DNA of 64,000 nucleotides, from assembly GCF_036127095.1 (NCBI RefSeq), contig NZ_CP108006.1, positions 434,001 to 498,000 of the forward strand. The letters run 5' to 3'. The stretch comes from Streptomyces sp. NBC_00335. GTDB lineage: Bacteria; Actinomycetota; Actinomycetes; Streptomycetales; Streptomycetaceae. Each line of letters begins with the position of its first letter. The first letter of the stretch is position 1. A program made the position numbers and the translations under genes. Below are positions 3,056 to 13,493 of this stretch, piece by piece. The notes beneath the pieces are model-generated. The model searched no databases. It had not been told where the DNA came from and saw only the letters and a list, made by a program, of their open reading frames with translations.

Positions 3056-3357
3056 ACTCCCATTCGACACCCCACCCCGGGAGATCCCGCTGGTCACCCA
3101 CCCGGCCGCCCGCCGCCCACCGCCGGACCGGCCACCCATCACGACGGCCGCAGCCGACGCCCACCATCCCTTTCCAGCCACTCCGGCCGGATACGACCAC
3201 CGTATCGAACATAATTCGAACAGTGCGACTCCACTGTCGGCTCCACGATCACCTCGCTCGCCGCTCGGTCCTGCCCGCCCCCGCCGACTGGAGCACGGTC
3301 GGCCGCTAGGGGGAGGCGCCGCGTCGCCTCCAATCGAGCGCGTATCTGGCCGGACGG

Positions 3358-3401
3358 GCCAACTAAAACGCCCAGTCACAAGACTTGGCGTTCTAGTTGG
3401 C
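3358..3401. repeat. Island repeat hairpin, copies 1 and 2
   Basis: GCCAACTAAAACGCC (3358-3372) and GGCGTTCTAGTTGGC (3387-3401) are inverted copies matching at 14 of 15 positions, around a 14-base loop that begins CAGTCACA. A third direct copy, GCGTTCTAGTCGGC, is at 3430-3443. The same motif with CAGTCACA recurs at 8753-8788/11863-11880 and, more loosely, at 13506-13519 and 16591-16613. Confidence 0.75.
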
Positions 3402-3527
3402 GATTTCGCGTTGCACTTGGCCTCGGTGCGCGTTCTAGTCGGCCCGGCACGGCCGTTGTCGCAGGTGGCGGCTATGTTTCAGCTCGTCGTTACGGAGGCG
3501 AGCGGGAGCGGGGAGCGGGGAGCGGCA

Positions 3528-4826
3528 ATGATGGTTGAGGTGGGGTACGCCCGGGCGTGGGACCTGGGGGCTCGCGCCCCCTGGAGGCCGATATCCGTGG
3601 AGGAGGCCCGTGAGCGGGATGCCGCCGGGCTTCCGTATGTAGTGGTGTACCGGACTGAGGGCCGGGAGGCTCCGCTGGAGGTCAGGCTCGTCTCCTGGCG
3701 GGATCACTACGTCGGTCTGTGGGTGTACGACGCTCAGGGCCGCGGTACCTGCGAGCTCGACGTGCGCCTGCTGGACGACCCGACGCGGCTGTGGCCCCGG
3801 CGCAACGTCCGCTGGCACTACACCGGCCCAGAGATGACGGAATTCGACGAGGCCTGTCCGCGCATCACCGTGGAGCTCTTCCCGGGCGGGAGGGGCCGCC
3901 AAACGGAGCAGCCCCAGGGCGAGCGCGGGCGCATACACGTCACCGCGCCCAGGAGCCGCGATGACGAGCACTGGGTGGACCGGCCGGTCTTCGGGGAGTG
4001 GCCGCTGCTCTCGTCTCAGGTGCACGGGCTTACGGAGACGCCGGTCCTCGACGTCGCCGAGCCGACCGCGGCGGCCACCGACGGCAGCGGGCTCGCGCCC
4101 ACCACGTGCTGGTGTCCACCTCACCCGGCGCAGCCCGGACCGATCGGTGAGCTGTTCCGGCCCGGGGTACGCGTGACCGACGGATACCACCCCGAGATGA
4201 CGATTGTGGAGCCACGCCGCATCGGCACCCTGCGCGTGCCCAGCGGGCTGCTCGCAGTCTCCGGCCCGGACATCGACCACGGAGACGGCCCGCACATCAC
4301 AGTCTCCGTTCCGCCTGGGGAGTACGCCTTGGAGGAGGCTCGGGCCCGACACAGCTATCACTGCATGTGGGAGGGGAGCGAGGTCACCCGTACGGACACC
4401 ATGGCTGTCCGCGTACTCGTCAGCGAGGTCCCCGCTGTGACCTGGGAGATGGCGCTGAAGCCCGACGACGACCTCCGACTGTTCGTCGATGATCAGATCT
4501 CCGGTTTCGCCACAGACGGAGCCACCGGCTGCTTCGCCGATGCCGGGGCATGGGAACCCCTCCTCGCGCTCTTCGAGAAAGGCCTGATCCAGGGAGACCC
4601 TGACCTGGACCCGGACGTCTACGAGGACATCAACGACTCCATGTACCTCCTGCGGACCCGGGACCAGGCCACCGGCGGCGAACTGGCAGCCTTCGCGACG
4701 ACGGGGGACGGCACCTATCCCGTCTGGGTCGGCCGCACCGAAGCCGGCGAAGTGGCCGGGGTCGTAGTACTGGTGGATGGGATGCCCGAGCTGCTCCCGG
4801 ACGGCGGCGCCACCGTCGGCGCCTGA
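3528..4826 (+). CDS. DUF4241 domain-containing protein
   Basis: Predicted 432-aa cytoplasmic protein of unknown function. The C-terminal half (about residues 215-432) has DUF4241 features: a LRVPSGLLAVSGPD strand near its start, VSVPPGEYALE, and the closing block around GFATDGATGCFADAGAW. The N-terminal half contains short hydrophilic blocks (VVYRTEGREAPLEVRLVSW, RNVRWHYTG) and is not recognised. The ATG at 3528 is preferred over an in-frame ATG at 3411 because the earlier one lies inside the repeat region and a purine-rich GGGGAGCGG precedes 3528. DUF4241 proteins often sit among SUKH-type immunity proteins, which fits this island, but an immunity role here is speculative. Confidence 0.8.
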   Translation: MMVEVGYARAWDLGARAPWRPISVEEARERDAAGLPYVVVYRTEGREAPLEVRLVSWRDHYVGLWVYDAQGRGTCELDVRLLDDPTRLWPRRNVRWHYTGPEMTEFDEACPRITVELFPGGRGRQTEQPQGERGRIHVTAPRSRDDEHWVDRPVFGEWPLLSSQVHGLTETPVLDVAEPTAAATDGSGLAPTTCWCPPHPAQPGPIGELFRPGVRVTDGYHPEMTIVEPRRIGTLRVPSGLLAVSGPDIDHGDGPHITVSVPPGEYALEEARARHSYHCMWEGSEVTRTDTMAVRVLVSEVPAVTWEMALKPDDDLRLFVDDQISGFATDGATGCFADAGAWEPLLALFEKGLIQGDPDLDPDVYEDINDSMYLLRTRDQATGGELAAFATTGDGTYPVWVGRTEAGEVAGVVVLVDGMPELLPDGGATVGA

Positions 4827-7026: not shown

Positions 7027-8097
7027 ATGAGTTTCGTACGCACTACTCCGCCGCGGCCTGTCGAGGTGGCAACGGTCTTCCCTCAGCTGGCGCCGCTGGC
7101 ACGCCCCGCGATACGGCTGCATCCCCGGCCGGGGTCGCCGTCGGTCAGGGACAGCTCGGTCGGCGGGCCATTGCTGTGGCCAGCAGAAGAGCCCTGGCCG
7201 CACTGCAAGGACGCGCACCTGCACGTGGACACCGGCTTCCGCCAGTCACCGACCGAAGTGCGGCTCGAGAGAGCCTTGCAGTACCGGCGGCGCCCTGATC
7301 TGGAGTCCACACTCACGCCCGAGGAGGAGGCGCTCAAGGAGCGCAACGCCGCGTGGCTTGCCGAACGGCTCAAAGCCGACCTTCCCGGTCCGGCGGATTG
7401 CCCGGTCCCGATGCTTTCCGTGGCTCAGCTGTTCCTGCGCGACGTACCCCTGTTGCGGCCGCCCGGGCAGGCTGATCTGCTTCAGATCCTCTGGTGCCCG
7501 TATGAGCACGATCCGGACTACAAGCCGGCGACCGCACTGTTCTGGCGGTCCGCCGCGGAGGTCGGCGACGTCCTCGCCGCACCACCGGAACCGTACGAGG
7601 CGGACTATCCGGGTTACGTTGCGGAGCCGTGCCTGCTCGCGCCAGAAGCGATCACGGAGTACCCCAACAGCCTGGACTTGAGCCCGGAGCTGCAGGAAAT
7701 GCTGGAGGACTGCAACAGGTGGCAGGCAGGCGGCGCCAACCTGGCCAGCTCCTACGCGGCGTATCCGCGCGACTTCTACTCCATCCATCTGGGCAACGCA
7801 CCCGGCTGGAAGGTCGGCGGCTGGCCCCCGTGGGGCCGCACCGACCCGTACCCCCGATACTGCGCCGTCTGCGAGGTACAGATGGTCCCGCTGCTGACGA
7901 TCGCTTCCTGGGAGTGGGACGGTGGTGATGGGCACAGCTGGGCGCCGCAGGAAGACCAGGCCGCTGCTACCAGTCCGCACTACGCAGGCCACTACCCCTC
8001 GCAGCCGACGGGGGTAGAAGTAGGCAGCACGGACAACATGCAGATCTACGTCTGCCCGACCTCCCCCGAGCATCCGCACACCGACTTGATCCAATGA
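7027..8097 (+). CDS. DUF1963 (YwqG-like) protein, paralogue B
   Basis: Predicted 356-aa soluble protein and close paralogue of the 5151-6200 gene, in the opposite direction across the IS. It shares SFVRTTPPRP, VGGPLLWPAEEPWP, LSVAQLFLRDVPLLRPPGQ, LLQILWCPYEH, APGWKVGGW and the terminal HPHTDLIQ. The ATG at 7027 lies 40 bases beyond the IS end, so the IS boundary sits in its leader. A cysteine pair (YCAVCEV) is kept, as in paralogue A. Function is unknown. Confidence 0.8.
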   Translation: MSFVRTTPPRPVEVATVFPQLAPLARPAIRLHPRPGSPSVRDSSVGGPLLWPAEEPWPHCKDAHLHVDTGFRQSPTEVRLERALQYRRRPDLESTLTPEEEALKERNAAWLAERLKADLPGPADCPVPMLSVAQLFLRDVPLLRPPGQADLLQILWCPYEHDPDYKPATALFWRSAAEVGDVLAAPPEPYEADYPGYVAEPCLLAPEAITEYPNSLDLSPELQEMLEDCNRWQAGGANLASSYAAYPRDFYSIHLGNAPGWKVGGWPPWGRTDPYPRYCAVCEVQMVPLLTIASWEWDGGDGHSWAPQEDQAAATSPHYAGHYPSQPTGVEVGSTDNMQIYVCPTSPEHPHTDLIQ

Positions 8098-8293
8098 GCT
8101 GTCCCAGTTGGCCTCACAACCCCGCTCACCCGTGACAGAAGGGCCGCCGAGTCGGAGTCGGAACATCCTGGAAGAACACGCAGGCGAGGCGATCGATGTC
8201 GCCAACCGGGAGGAACGCATCATGTGCGCGCGTTTCCACAGGCGAGAGGAAATGGAGGTGCTGCCCCCTGGCCTGCGCAGGCAGGATCTCCCC

Positions 8294-8745
8294 ATGTCGA
8301 CAGATGTCAGCGGAATGATCGAATGCCGGCCGGGAGCCCGCCTGTGGGGCCCTGACGACGAGGAATCCGTATGGGAGCCGGCATCGATCTCCTCCTCCTG
8401 AACATGGCCAACGCCTACGACGGCCTGGCCTGTCTTTTCGGAATCCGCAACCACTTCGGTTTCCGCCCCCTCGCGGAGGATCGCGGCTTTCCGGATGACG
8501 CCTCGGAGGGGCTGCGGCGGGAGTTCGCCGACTGTGGCGGCCCCCGCTAGGTGCACGGGACGACCTGGCTGACCTGGTCCGAGTTGGAGACCACGGACTG
8601 GCAGGAGACCGAGGCCTCGGGCACGCGAACCCGTGCCTCAGCCGCGGGGATCGACACCCACTGGGGCCCCGTCTGGAAGGTCATGCGCATCCTCAGCGAA
8701 ATCCACGGTGCCGAGAACGTACGCCTCGTCGCCTGGTTCCACTGA
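8294..8745 (+). pseudogene. Decayed small hypothetical gene with frameshift and amber codon
   Basis: A frame starting at 8294 reads STDVSGMIECRPGARLWG, then breaks. A second frame from 8371 continues LLLLNMANAYDGLACLFGIRNHFGFRPLAEDRG, hits an in-frame TAG at 8548-8550, and resumes without a gap as VHGTTWLTWSELETTDWQ to a stop at 8745. Its continuity across frameshift and stop fits one actinobacterial family of small proteins of unknown function (recalled, not searched). The segment between the WSELE block and the C-terminal VRLVAWFH block also seems short. It directly abuts the hairpin hit by the ISL3 element. Confidence 0.6.
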
Positions 8746-8752
8746 CTCGCGG

Positions 8753-8788
8753 CTGAGCGTCGTAGTTGGCCAGGCTGGCCAACTACGA
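8753..8788. repeat. Perfect 19-bp hairpin arm interrupted by ISL3 (island repeat copy)
   Basis: CTGAGCGTCGTAGTTGGCC (8753-8771), loop AGGCT, then GGCCAACTACGA (8777-8788), broken by the ISL3 insertion. It resumes beyond the element as CGCTCAG (11871-11877). With the element and one duplicated 8-mer removed, the arms are perfect 19-bp complements. It is followed by CAGTCACA at 11874-11881, as at the first copy. It could act as a bidirectional terminator for the gene ending at 8745. Confidence 0.85.
8781..8788. repeat. ISL3 target-site duplication, left copy
   Basis: AACTACGA immediately left of the element is repeated exactly at 11863-11870, immediately right of it. Eight bases is the usual ISL3-family duplication. 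Confidence 0.9.
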
Positions 8789-8813
8789 GGTTCTGACCGT
8801 TCTTCCGTGATGG

Positions 8814-10368
8814 CTACGCCTGCAGGAGGATGCGGGCTCTGAGTAGGGCGAATGAGGCCCTGCTGTACATCTGCCGCTTGATCGTTTTGATCCTGTTGAC
8901 GTGGCCTTCGACGATGCCGGAGCTGTAGGGCAAGGTGAGGCCGGCGGCAACGGCGTGAAGGTCCTGGCGGATGGAGTCGGCGAAGATGCCGATGGCGGCG
9001 GGGCCGCCCAGCTCGGCCTTCTGAATCCAGTCCCGCAGCAGGTGTCGGCGGCGTTGGCGGAGCTTGTCGGTGAACTCCCGCGCGAGGTCGCAGGCCTGGG
9101 CGATCTCCGGGCAGGCACTCCGCACAGCGTCGAGCTGGGCCATGTCGGACGTGCTGAGTGAATCCTCGGGGCGCATGATCCATGAGGTCATGTCGCGAGG
9201 GCGGGGAGTCGCCGCCCGGGCAGGGACCGCGATGCCTTGCCGGATGGTCACTACGTAGCGGTGCGCGACGTGGTACCCGCCGGTGTAGCCGAGGGCGAGC
9301 ACCTCGCGGTAGAGCTGCATGGAGCTGGTGCAGCCTGCGTGGAAGCGGTGCTGCACGTGCTCGATGAATGGGTCGAGGACTCCGTGTCCGCGGTCCTGCG
9401 CCGAGGCGAGAAGCCCTGGTAGATCCTTGTTCCGGTAGCGCCTGACCGTCTTGCGATCCAGCTGTAGGTGGCGGCCGATGGCGTTCAGCGACATGCCGGT
9501 GGCGGCGAGCTCGTTGACCTCCGCGTGGCGTTGTCGGATCCGGTCCAGGAGCGGAGTTTCCCGGGTGGCCAACGGTGGGCTGGCCTCTGGTTCGGCTGGC
9601 CGTCGAAGGCAGTCACGGTGCCGGCGGCAGGTCTCCTCCACCGCCGTCGAGAGGTTCTGGAGGAGGTGCCAGCGATCTGCCACCTCCAGCACGTCGGGGG
9701 GCGGCCTGTCTGATGGCCTTTGTGAATGCCATCAGGCGGTCTCGGCAGATGATCTCGGCGCCGGGGCGCTCCTGGAGCCATGCGGCGACCGTGCTGGTCT
9801 CTCGGTCCGGCAACACATCCACCGGCCGGGAGGACTCGACGTCGACGAGGACAGTGCCGTAGGTCCGGCCCTTGCGGAACGCGAACTCGTCGATGCCGAG
9901 GATCCGTGGAGCTCGCGCTGGTACAGGCGGAGCGGTCAACTCGCCCAAGACGGATGTCCGCCGGCCGTAGAGCCGCAGCTTTGCGCAGAGGCGTGCGCCC
10001 GGGCGGCCGCCGAGCTCCACCGCGACCGACCGCATCGCCGACCGCGCCGCCGTCGAAGAACGTCGTCGAGGCTCGGTCAGGCCGGCCACCTGTTCCACGA
10101 AAGTCCGACGCGGGCATCGGGGCTGATCGCAGAAGAAGCGGTGGACGCGGAGACGGACGATCAACCGACGGCCGCTGAACGGCAGTCCGGCTATGTGACG
10201 CGAGTACCGGCTGTGGACGCGTGCGGCGGGATGTTGACACGCGGGACACGCTCCGGGCGGCCCGCAGCCAGCTGCGTCGATCATCAAGCGGTCATCCGCG
10301 ACGACGGCCTGCCGCAGGACGAGGGTCAGGCCCGGGAAGAGGGCGTCTTCGACAGTCTCCAGCTCCAT
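8814..10368 (-). pseudogene. ISL3-family transposase, frameshifted in a G6 run
   Basis: DDE transposase of about 515 aa if read through. The N-terminal zinc ribbon is CPACQHPAARVHSRY followed by FFCDQPRCPRRTF. The DDE core has ILGIDEFAFRKG (first Asp), GAEIICRDR (second Asp) and GIVEGHVNRIK (Glu). An HTH (MSLNAIGRHLQLDRKTVRRY) sits between the second Asp and the Glu. The frame breaks at six G (9696-9701 on the + strand): with five, KAIRQAAP continues as DVLEVADRWHLLQNL; with six, it runs off-frame. This could be a real inactivating +1, a sequencing error, or recoding. Confidence 0.85.
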
Positions 10369-10455
10369 GATGGCGTGATCCCCTAGTGGAACGATCCTGC
10401 AATCTCTCGACCGTTCAGCGCATCCCGCCAGGTGCGAGGTGTTGCAACTGGGCGA

Positions 10456-10734
10456 TCAGGGGGCCTGCAAGAAGGGGATGGGAATGTCGTGTGCTTTCAG
10501 AGCCGCCGTATAGCGAGCCAGCAGCCCGTCGATGCCCGAGAGGAGGTAGGACGCCTCTTCCCGGGCCTCAGCGACGTCACCCTGGTCGCAGGCCCTTACG
10601 ATCCGGGCGACGTCGTCACGGATGACCGAAAGGGAATCGCCCTGGATCAACACGCCCGGAAATCTACGCGGGGGAAGAGGGACTACCGCATCGTTACTTG
10701 CGTCCGTGAACAGTTCGACCTCTACACGTTCCAT
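10456..10734 (-). CDS. DUF6959-like small protein (ISL3 cargo)
   Basis: Predicted 92-aa acidic protein. It begins ERVEVELFTDASNDAVV, followed by RRFPGVLIQGDSLSVIRDDV and an alpha-helical C-terminal half, which fits the DUF6959 family as I remember it. The ATG at 10734 is chosen because the conserved MERVEVEL start falls there; the same frame is open further upstream without recognisable sequence. It lies inside the ISL3 inverted repeats. Family members are often near SUKH/immunity genes, but the function is unknown. Confidence 0.6.
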   Translation of the reverse strand: MERVEVELFTDASNDAVVPLPPRRFPGVLIQGDSLSVIRDDVARIVRACDQGDVAEAREEASYLLSGIDGLLARYTAALKAHDIPIPFLQAP

Positions 10735-10911
10735 CCGATCATCCAACCTCAGACCCGTCCTCATCTCCAGGCACAGCCGTCGTGGAAGCGACCAGAACCC
10801 TTCGCATGGCCAGCTGTGCACAACGCTTGGCCGCCTCCGCTGACCTGGAGTGCTTCCCTCCAGCCTGAAATCTCGTCGATCTCATGACGGGGTGATGCCT
10901 ACGCTGCCTCC

Positions 10912-11796
10912 ATGGCCAATTCGAAGACCAGCGCGACCTGCGACAGGCTGGTTCAGCTGGTGGCGCCGCCGGCTGCCCCGGTGGACGCCCACGGGGATTG
11001 GGCCCTCGTGGAGACCGCAGTCGCTACCCGGCTGCCCGACGACTACAAGCGACTCGTCGAAACCTACGGCTGGGGAGAGTTCTGCGACGTCCTCTACCTT
11101 CGGACGCCGTTCGGTGCGAGCAAACACAACGGCATCGAGTGGCAGAGCCCCCACCCCACGGAGTCGCCCGAACAGGATCGCGAGCGCTATTCGTATCCGC
11201 TGCACCCGGCTCCGGGCGCGCTGCTGATCTGGGGCACCACGATGGACGCCGACCGCCTGTGCTGGCTCACCGACGGGGATCCCGAGAAATGGCCCGTCGT
11301 GGTGTGGAGCAGTGAGGGCTGGTACGAGACGCACGCTGTGGGCGCGGCCGAGTTCATCGAGAGCTGGGCCTGCGGACACGCCGGCTCTGGACTGCTCGCA
11401 GACATGGAACCGGGGCTGGCACCATGGTTCAACGCCTTCCGTCCCCGCACCCACCGGTGCCTGCGCCTGTCCGAAGGCCCTTTCTCCCACCCCGAGCGCC
11501 TGGAGCTCCTGCGCGAGGCACTGGCTCCCACCACCGACCGGGGCTCGTGGCGCTCCACGCACGACGAAACGGGACAGGATCACTTCGCGACCGTCGATAC
11601 CGACTGGTTGCTCACCTACGACGCCTCCCGCCCCCACCAAATCCGGATCGACTTCCCACCCGAAGACAGCGGACAGGTCCAGCAACGCCTCTTCGCCGCT
11701 GTACACCGAATGGAGTGCGAGGTTCTTCGGATCACGGCTGCGTCTGGAACATCGCTCCCGGCCTGGGACACGGCCACGGACGAAGACGAGGGGTAG
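10912..11796 (+). CDS. SUKH (SMI1/KNR4) family protein (ISL3 cargo)
   Basis: Predicted 294-aa protein. The N-terminal 150 residues show the SUKH pattern: WALVETAVATRLPDDYKRLVETYGWGEF, then a FGASKHNG loop, GALLIWGTTMDADRLCWL and VVVWSSEGWYETHAVGAAEF. The C-terminal part is a second, less recognisable alpha/beta region. SUKH proteins commonly act as immunity proteins to polymorphic toxins; no toxin gene is present beside it. It lies between the ISL3 inverted repeats, so it moves with the transposase. An orphan immunity gene on an IS is the inferred role. Confidence 0.8.
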   Translation: MANSKTSATCDRLVQLVAPPAAPVDAHGDWALVETAVATRLPDDYKRLVETYGWGEFCDVLYLRTPFGASKHNGIEWQSPHPTESPEQDRERYSYPLHPAPGALLIWGTTMDADRLCWLTDGDPEKWPVVVWSSEGWYETHAVGAAEFIESWACGHAGSGLLADMEPGLAPWFNAFRPRTHRCLRLSEGPFSHPERLELLREALAPTTDRGSWRSTHDETGQDHFATVDTDWLLTYDASRPHQIRIDFPPEDSGQVQQRLFAAVHRMECEVLRITAASGTSLPAWDTATDEDEG

Positions 11797-12038
11797 GAAG
11801 AGAGCCAGCCTGGACGCGGGCCGCCTGTCTAGCGTAGCCATCACGGAAGCGCGGTCAGAACCAACTACGACGCTCAGTCACACATAGGCTGAGACTTAGA
11901 GGATGTCTCACGTGGATAGGTTCCGAGCTCCTTCAGCAGGTCTGGGCGGTGACCATAGCTGACCACGGCTCTGCCAGTCGTTGCGGAGCGCGTACGGGAT
12001 CTTGAGACCATGAGCAGCCCATGGCAGGCTCGTGCCCC

Positions 12039-12660: not shown

Positions 12661-13493
12661 ATGATGCCGGTCGTGAGTGCTGCTGATCTGTCGAAACGCC
12701 TGGTTCCTGATGCACTCTGGGAGCTGGTTGCCCCGTTATTGCCGTCGTTCGCGGCTCGACCGCAAGGTGGTGGGACCGCTCCGTGTGACGAACGGGCAGT
12801 GTTCACGGCAGTGGTGTACGTCCTGACCACCGGCTGTGCCTGGCGGCATCTGCCGCCGACGTTCGGCACGTCCCCCGCCACCGCGCATCGCCGCTTCACG
12901 ATATGGACCGAGGCCGGCCTATGGCGTCGGCTCCACCGGGCGGTGCTGGACGAACTCGGGGCCCGGGGCAAGGTGGACTGGACCTCGGCAATCGTCGCCG
13001 CGGCCTCTGTTCGCGCCAAAAGGGGGGATCACTGACCGGTCCGAACCCGGTCGATCGCGGCAAGAAGGGCAGCAAGTTGCACGTGCTGTCCGATGCCCAG
13101 GGCGTCCCACTCACCGTCGCCGTGTCCGGCGCGAACATGCACGACAGTCTCGCCCTCAAGCCGCTCATCCTCGGCATCCCCGCCATCCGGTCCCGCCGGG
13201 GGCCACGGCGACGCCGCCCCGTCAAACTCCGCGCGGACAAGGCGTATTTTTCCGCCGAGCACCTGGCCTGGCTGCGCGAGCGTGGGCTGGTCGCGCGCAT
13301 CGCGCGGCCAGGCGTCGACTCCGGAAAACGCCTCGGGCGGCACCGCTGGAAGATCGAGCGGTCGATCGCTTGGCTCTTCGGCTACCGCCGCTTGACCGTC
13401 CGGTACGAACGAAAGGGCTCACACTTCCTCGCCTTCCTCGGCCTGGCTGCTGCCCTGACCTGCTACAAGAAGCTCGCGAAACTTGCCACGTGA
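12661..13493 (+). CDS. IS5-family transposase, two frames joined by -1 frameshift
   Basis: The first frame (12661-13035) reads LVPDALWELVAPLLPSF and WRHLPPTFGTSPATAHRRF. The second frame carries SLTGPNPVDRGKKGSKLHVL, the second catalytic Asp in LRADKAYFS, and the Glu region WKIERSIAWLFGYRR. The frames overlap at a CCAAAAGGGGGG slippery stretch near 13015-13026, as expected for programmed -1 frameshifting in this group. The first catalytic Asp, normally in a VDA.SVRAK motif, reads IVAAASVRAK here (GCC for GAC), so the enzyme is probably inactive. Confidence 0.8.

Follow-up and report, generated by a model that had tools for sequence, protein, structure and literature searches.

Insertion sequences (IS) of the ISL3 family end in terminal inverted repeats (TIRs) and, as a general rule, generate an 8-bp target-site duplication (TSD). 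Here we describe a 3,074-bp unit of this family, bounded by its TIRs, in a 64,000-nucleotide stretch of Streptomyces sp. NBC_00335 (contig NZ_CP108006.1, positions 434,001 to 498,000; "the window" is this whole stretch); the unit carries genes for a DUF6959 protein and a SUKH-type protein, and lies, flanked by an 8-bp duplication of its own, within the outermost box at the end of a Tn7-like element. Passenger genes are on record in the family: excerpts of PMC4133298 and PMC6305408 describe ISPpu12 (tnpR, a signal-peptidase-like gene and a heavy-metal antiporter) and ISPst2 (a permease and ArsR), and an excerpt of the latter source also gives an ISL3 example with an 8-bp direct repeat. As these excerpts present them, ISPpu12 and ISPst2 resemble our unit in their family and in having extra genes not needed for transposition; our unit differs in that its cargo is DUF6959 plus SUKH, that the cargo varies from copy to copy, and that transposase-less units sharing its ends are common.

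Mobile insertion cassettes and miniature inverted-repeat transposable elements, in an excerpt of PMC4133298, are units with IS ends and no transposase, whereas the window unit falls outside this class in retaining a transposase gene, albeit a broken one. The homing of an IS to the end of another transposon is described in PMC8269217 for IS4321 and IS5075 of the IS1111 family, whose targets are the TIRs of Tn21-type transposons; the window IS belongs to another recombinase family, makes an 8-bp duplication, and lies in a Tn7-like rather than a Tn3-family end. Furi et al., as cited in PMC12056078, report an IS1182-type capture of a passenger by way of a degenerate inverted repeat, which is akin to the gain of a passenger via an alternative end proposed here; in the window, however, the IS family is another, the outer end is near-perfect and the inner end is decayed. 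Both passenger genes in IS and the homing of IS to the ends of transposons are already known; in the literature we searched, which included few subscription papers, we found no report of a Tn7-like end as a target for ISL3, nor of an ISL3 element with this target or this cargo. Taken together, we consider it likely that the following account holds: an ISL3 unit in a Tn7-like end box, DUF6959 as its old passenger, SUKH gained by a switch of the right end, and Tn7-like boxes as the preferred target.

An insertion in the end of a Tn7-like element

The 31-nt arms of the unit (8789-8819 and 11832-11862) are inverted and complementary at 29 of 31 positions (94%), and are bordered by an 8-bp duplication, as is usual for ISL3. 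The weight matrix that scores them was trained on 27 TIR sequences, the window's own two ends among them, and gave no match of at least 4 bits in the 662,652 positions of a reversed control sequence. The features of the locus, in which genomes are cited here and below by G numbers and stretches by L numbers, are:

8249..8745, + strand: cargo stretch of the interrupted Tn7-like element (open reading frames (ORFs) 8371-8550 and 8551-8745, one frame split by a stop)
8753..8771, + strand: inverted inner copy of the box at the Tn7-like end, CTGAGCGTCGTAGTTGGCC, without mismatch to the box; it makes up the left arm of the hairpin at the target
8781..8788, no strand: left 8-bp TSD AACTACGA
8789..8819, + strand: left TIR (52.7 bits in the TIR weight matrix)
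8814..9692, - strand: ISL3 transposase, C-terminal part, second frame (PF01610, 47.9 bits)
9613..10368, - strand: ISL3 transposase, N-terminal part, first frame (PF14690, 40.2 bits; PF01610, 40.7 bits)
10456..10734, - strand: DUF6959 gene, 92 aa, likely start 10734 as judged from the IS copies, open frame to 10821 (PF22281, 131.2 bits)
10771..10799, - strand: decayed inner right TIR of the IS and DUF6959 unit (gapped; local alignment score 26 against the TIR)
10912..11796, + strand: SUKH_6 protein, 294 aa, open frame (PF14568, 38.1 bits; cut-off 27)
11832..11862, - strand: outer right TIR (53.6 bits in the TIR weight matrix)
11863..11870, no strand: right 8-bp TSD AACTACGA, exact (8/8)
11863..11882, - strand: outermost box and terminus of the interrupted Tn7-like element (TGTGACTGAGCGTCGTAGTT on the - strand), where homology to G090 and G054 stops exactly

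Every Pfam match on the element (ISL3 transposase in two frames, DUF6959 and SUKH_6) lies above its cut-off, in agreement with an earlier note on this DNA that had described an ISL3 element with SUKH and DUF6959 as non-transposase cargo.

Empty sites were sought by joining the two flanks with a single copy of the duplication between them, 638 nt in all, and comparing this sequence with 295 genomes of the genus. Among the matches listed, G054 and G090 align with positions 1-461 of the joined flanks at about 84-85% identity, unbroken across the insertion point at 449/450, and both matches stop at the same base, the terminus of the Tn7-like element; shorter matches across the insertion point cover the end itself only (G056, 409-461; G278, 413-461), and one match in G169 reaches 3 nt past it. 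Since the joined flanks are continuous in G090 and G054, the 3.1-kb unit is an insertion, which bears out the claim of the earlier note that arms matching at 29 of 31 bases and an exact 8-bp duplication delimit a unit that moved as one piece. The same note had proposed looking for empty sites with the hairpin intact; empty sites exist and their target box is uninterrupted, but the box is intact in G090 and degenerate (several changes) in G054, and in both genomes the hairpin stem is less perfect than the window's.

The homologous block comprises 8249-11882 minus the insert in G090 and G054 (85%), and in G019 and G169 it reaches roughly as far as the point of insertion (83-84%). The remainder of the outermost box stands at 8777-8788, repeating the TSD. 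No Pfam family was found in the cargo stretch 8249..8745, and no left partner of the window's Tn7-like end within 6 mismatches was found near 8249; by eye, a box-like relic can be seen near 8096-8114.

Related copies and a probable preference for Tn7-like end boxes

A search with the TIR pattern gave 52 sites in 29 of 392 genomes, and the reversed control matched in none; stretches were read around 49 of the 52 sites. The duplication agrees at 7 or 8 of 8 positions in seven of the 13 end pairs chosen (the window, G291, G376, G040, G038, G039 and G365), with at most 5/8 in the others and none in a further pair in G256. The earlier note had asked whether other copies carry the same or different cargo, and the copies carry different cargo: by Pfam, a TetR regulator and a hydrolase in G291, the same hydrolase at a different site in G376, YCII in G040, DUF6193 in G226 (duplication 5/8), and a kinase in G054 (2/8). 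A second G054 unit carries TetR and a protein without Pfam assignment (1/8), and the same gene pair recurs in G365 (8/8); the cargo of G039 is a 240-aa protein without Pfam assignment. The pairs in L116 (TSD 7/8) and L131 (8/8) hold cargo and no match to the window's transposase. Also present in the window's own genome is a two-ended mini-element of 158 bp that has these same TIRs (L009 2052-2209; C1:8682551-8682708), which likewise lies in a Tn7-like end box, with bordering 8-mers agreeing at 5/8.

The Tn7-like transposons are here the target family and not the element itself. They have the TIR TGTGACTGAGCGnnnnAGTTGGCC with TGTG termini, repeated boxes and a 5-bp TSD, the inverted ends expected of Tn7-like elements, and their boxes form inward-facing pairs around one or few genes. 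The box pattern gave 48 matches across 41 genomes, of which 17 had none, against 5 matches for the control; the end pattern matched in 82 of 150 genomes. Exact 5-bp duplications flank 14 of the 25 pairs listed, which came from stretches chosen because they showed such pairs, and one of the 14 is in the window's own genome (L163, GTTGA). We call the family Tn7-like because its 8.3-kb member at L256 44-8389 (G046 C181) encodes a 903-aa protein with a TnsA-like match (NF033179, 123.2 bits; cut-off 110) and a weak rve match below cut-off (23.9 bits), together with a TniB-type ATPase above cut-off (32.8 bits); none of the three was found in the proteins of seven other stretches scanned (L163, L166, L168, L169, L170, L255 and L259). 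Short units of this widespread kind in L163, L166-L170, L255-L268 and L256, often with exact 5-bp duplications and one or few genes, carry an esterase, a PLP decarboxylase with an Lrp-type regulator, an M20 peptidase, a metallo-hydrolase or DUF2716. Another Tn7-like terminus, TGTGACTGGGCGTTTTAGTTGGCC, lies at 3357-3380 on the - strand of the window, with further degenerate boxes adjoining.

For 55 TIR ends from 44 sources, the outside flank was compared with the box, a half-box being required in register with the duplication (GGCCAACT at 6 or more of 8 positions, or CTGAGCG..AGTT at 8 or more of 11). In this test 27 ends (15 and 12 in the two orientations), spread over 21 stretches, lie in register in GGCC-AACTnnnn-CGCTCAG; random positions satisfy the two definitions at 0.57% and 0.14% per orientation. 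The transposase would accordingly be one that prefers such boxes as its target. A different flank (GATGRGG..TTGAAAAC-GGCC) is shared by several of the remaining ends, in L119, L144 and L145, for copies with GGCTGTGACC ends; judged by eye, it may be a second kind of end, belonging to another transposon family.

The apparent preference could also arise if both kinds of element accumulate in the same regions, or if the box is a common terminator-like repeat, and the window site does lie directly 3' of a coding frame, the joined site folds strongly (-44.8 kcal/mol, z -8.6), and several sites in the window's own genome are near chromosome ends. A scan of the window, with the element in place, found no T-tailed terminator at the hairpin. 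We hold such an explanation to be unlikely, given that the match is in register with the TSD at 27 of 55 ends and that the box, with 48 sites in 41 genomes, is rare and makes up transposon ends flanked by TSDs.

DUF6959, SUKH and the probable order of cargo gain

DUF6959 (PF22281) was found in 46 of 392 genomes. In the window its gene is upstream of the transposase gene and in the same direction, and in eight other genomes (G226/NBC_01214, G038/NBC_01276, G083/S. humi, G382, G150, G256/AP-93, S. chryseus and NRRL S-87) it stands just inside a clear TIR, with 36 nt between start codon and TIR in seven and 43 nt in G083. A strong TIR lies directly upstream in 5 of the 30 loci listed, with G382, fetched apart, as a sixth genome; loci outside these 30 were checked by the TIR pattern search only. 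Among the best 80 of 99 DUF6959 loci, a TIR of at least 46 bits stands upstream in five (G083, G226, G256, S. chryseus, NRRL S-87), and two further loci have weak TIRs (L188, 23.2 bits; L178, 14.3 bits). Pieces of the transposase or more are found beside DUF6959 in seven of the eight genomes: near full length in G256 and S. chryseus, a part in NRRL S-87 and G150, and relics in G038, G382 and G083; none was seen beside the gene in G226. The DUF6959 frame is broken in G382. The G038 copy is a 786-bp unit of DUF6959 and transposase relics, with the exact TSD GTTTTCAA and without SUKH. The earlier note had reasoned that copies ending before the DUF6959 gene, with an 8-bp duplication of their own, would make the outer match a chance one; the copies found end just outside that gene, without SUKH.

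A tree of 72 DUF6959 proteins (69 of the 80 named loci are in, 11 having been dropped for partial match, stops or short ends, and G382 was left out) places all 10 rows labelled as IS-borne within one 12-row group with support 93/89; the labels change three times, and none of 500 shuffles was as clustered. The window DUF6959 is thus one of a lineage that occurs in ISL3 elements, at the spacing given above inside the right TIR and upstream of the transposase, in its direction. No role can be assigned to it. As an immunity or defence gene it was considered and dropped: PADLOC matched neither the SUKH nor the DUF6959 protein, a DUF6959 model of moderate confidence (mean pLDDT 75.3) had no Foldseek match at E ≤0.001, and there is no common neighbour, the largest common cluster covering 7 of 54 loci (from 300 roughly called ORFs, some surely spurious). 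We likewise rejected a role as a helper that transposition requires, since G039, G071 and G291 have elements without a DUF6959 match. Our literature search for DUF6959 found no paper.

The longer DUF6959 ORF, which extends to 10821, runs across the decayed inner TIR upstream of the likely start. This TIR was assessed by local alignment, since a free-gap alignment failed to separate IS copies from loci without a TIR: across 71 DUF6959 loci, the five clear IS copies score 48-62, L188 scores 30 and L178 scores 29, and the other 64 reach at most 22, compared with 26 for the window relic. The spacer between the inner TIR and DUF6959 matches at 26-31 of 36 nt in four copies and at 21 in the fifth, and loci without a TIR reach 22. 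Outside the relic, CTTCGCATGGCC is similar by eye to the target box, in keeping with an earlier site of insertion.

The SUKH gene lies outside this inner right end and inside the outer one. The 30 nt inward of the outer TIR match best in L114 and L108 (23/30), followed by L131 (22) and L136 (21), of which L108 and L131 are paired units and L114 and L136 single ends; the window's transposase was not found in these four stretches, except for a 32-residue piece 3.7 kb away in L114. The position of SUKH beyond the relic, together with an outer end like those of transposase-less units, suggests that SUKH was probably added to the element by a switch of its right end, the relic marking the order of events. 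A copy made of the IS and DUF6959 would have come to adjoin a SUKH gene beside which lay the right end of a different member of this TIR family; the inner right end would have decayed or been skipped, and the transposase would then have used the left end together with the outer right one, making SUKH cargo.

The earlier note had read the unit, both genes included, as having moved in one event. The two genes were probably not acquired together: DUF6959 recurs at a fixed place, and SUKH is outside a decayed inner end. That a plain ISL3 element picked up both as one block seems to us quite improbable. A SUKH gene (29% identity) does lie divergent from DUF6959 in L093 (G139), in a window-like layout without a TIR, and SUKH matches are near DUF6959 also in L193 and L180; yet DUF6959 is inside a clear right TIR in eight genomes, this SUKH is in none of the stretches read there, and the inner relic stands between the two genes in the window.

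The SUKH protein has the domain of SUKH immunity proteins, and from its sequence is most likely encoded by a stand-alone immunity-type gene. Its relatives in G028 and G033 share 74% identity with it over 274 aa and 59% over 272 aa, respectively, and no TIR of at least 15 bits was found in the stretches read around these relatives. Among 42 stretches around TIR sites and related genes, three (L140, L142 and L143) contain SUKH relatives; L142 and L143, fetched for their SUKH gene, are without a TIR, and in L140 (G384, 3155-3740) 30 nt separate the end of a distant SUKH gene (29% identity) from a right TIR, near the chromosome end, with no left TIR found for this gene. The suggestion that an IS could spread orphan immunity draws on the SUKH family name; L140 is the one stretch of the 42 in which a relative stands beside a TIR.

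The broken transposase gene and the wider reading

Both the ISL3 DDE transposase (PF01610) and the ISL3 zinc ribbon (PF14690) are present above cut-off, and the two halves score 126.7 and 166.2 bits against NF033550, whose whole-protein cut-off of 180 neither reaches. The frame breaks after about residue 224, at about 9694, and the window unit lacks the intact transposase gene of an autonomous element. A single stop-free frame is found in four of the five relatives examined (L104, L124, L125 and L144, the last with DUF6959), and L105 has stops. The window copy and that of S. chryseus (L177), both DUF6959-bearing, are frameshifted at the same alignment column, where their bases differ, and seven other copies are unshifted. 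We dropped the idea that the gene was broken after landing, as the S. chryseus copy has the same break; the break is therefore probably no mark of decay after this insertion. It is probably older than the insertion, or both copies read across it; a repeated event is among the alternatives. The unit would have jumped with a transposase supplied in trans by another copy, or with a frameshifted product.

Programmed frameshifting, by which the transposase would be made from two frames and the unit still be active alone, is very unlikely in our judgement: the two copies shifted at one column, both with DUF6959, are what it would lead one to expect, but four relatives have one open frame, L144 with DUF6959 among them, and the two shifted copies have different bases at the shift. 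It is extremely improbable that the outer right TIR belongs, as its near end, to a second element overlapping the first, with the outer duplication a chance match, for all that this end resembles ends without this transposase and that the same genome holds the 158-bp two-ended mini-element, since the duplication is exact at 8/8 and the empty sites show the whole stretch to be extra.

Several points weigh against the account favored here. As to the target, the main box does not account for 28 of the 55 TIR ends; the 27 that fit come from 21 stretches, so that paired ends do not count as independent; and the preference is drawn from resident copies, not transposition events. The DUF6959 tree has few columns, and its 12-row group, not starred by the tool, includes two labelled rows with weak TIRs (L178, L188) and two rows without a TIR. 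A score of 26 was reached by 81 of 20,000 random 100-nt stretches, a draw that includes real TIRs (its maximum is a perfect TIR), so that the case for the inner relic leans on place and spacer. We found no intermediate in which an intact inner end and an outer end enclose SUKH, nor, in the stretches read, another unit bounded by TIRs that contains this SUKH; a broken transposase common to another species weighs on any account of how this copy jumped.

On a more general proposal we are evenly divided: that in Streptomyces this ISL3 family homes to the transposase-binding boxes of Tn7-like cargo transposons, giving nested, swappable cassettes in which genes, among them SUKH-like immunity-type ones, are gained by end switching. 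If true, the two families, largely short cargo-bearing units, would build nested gene cassettes, the ISL3 ends wrapping varied genes and then landing in the ends of Tn7-like cargo units. This would be a testable route for the shuffling of single genes, immunity-type or without known role, in Streptomyces, and the choice of another transposon's end boxes by a DDE-type IS is directly testable.

To the right of the ISL3 element, at 12661-13493, the window encodes an IS4/IS5-type transposase (DUF4096).

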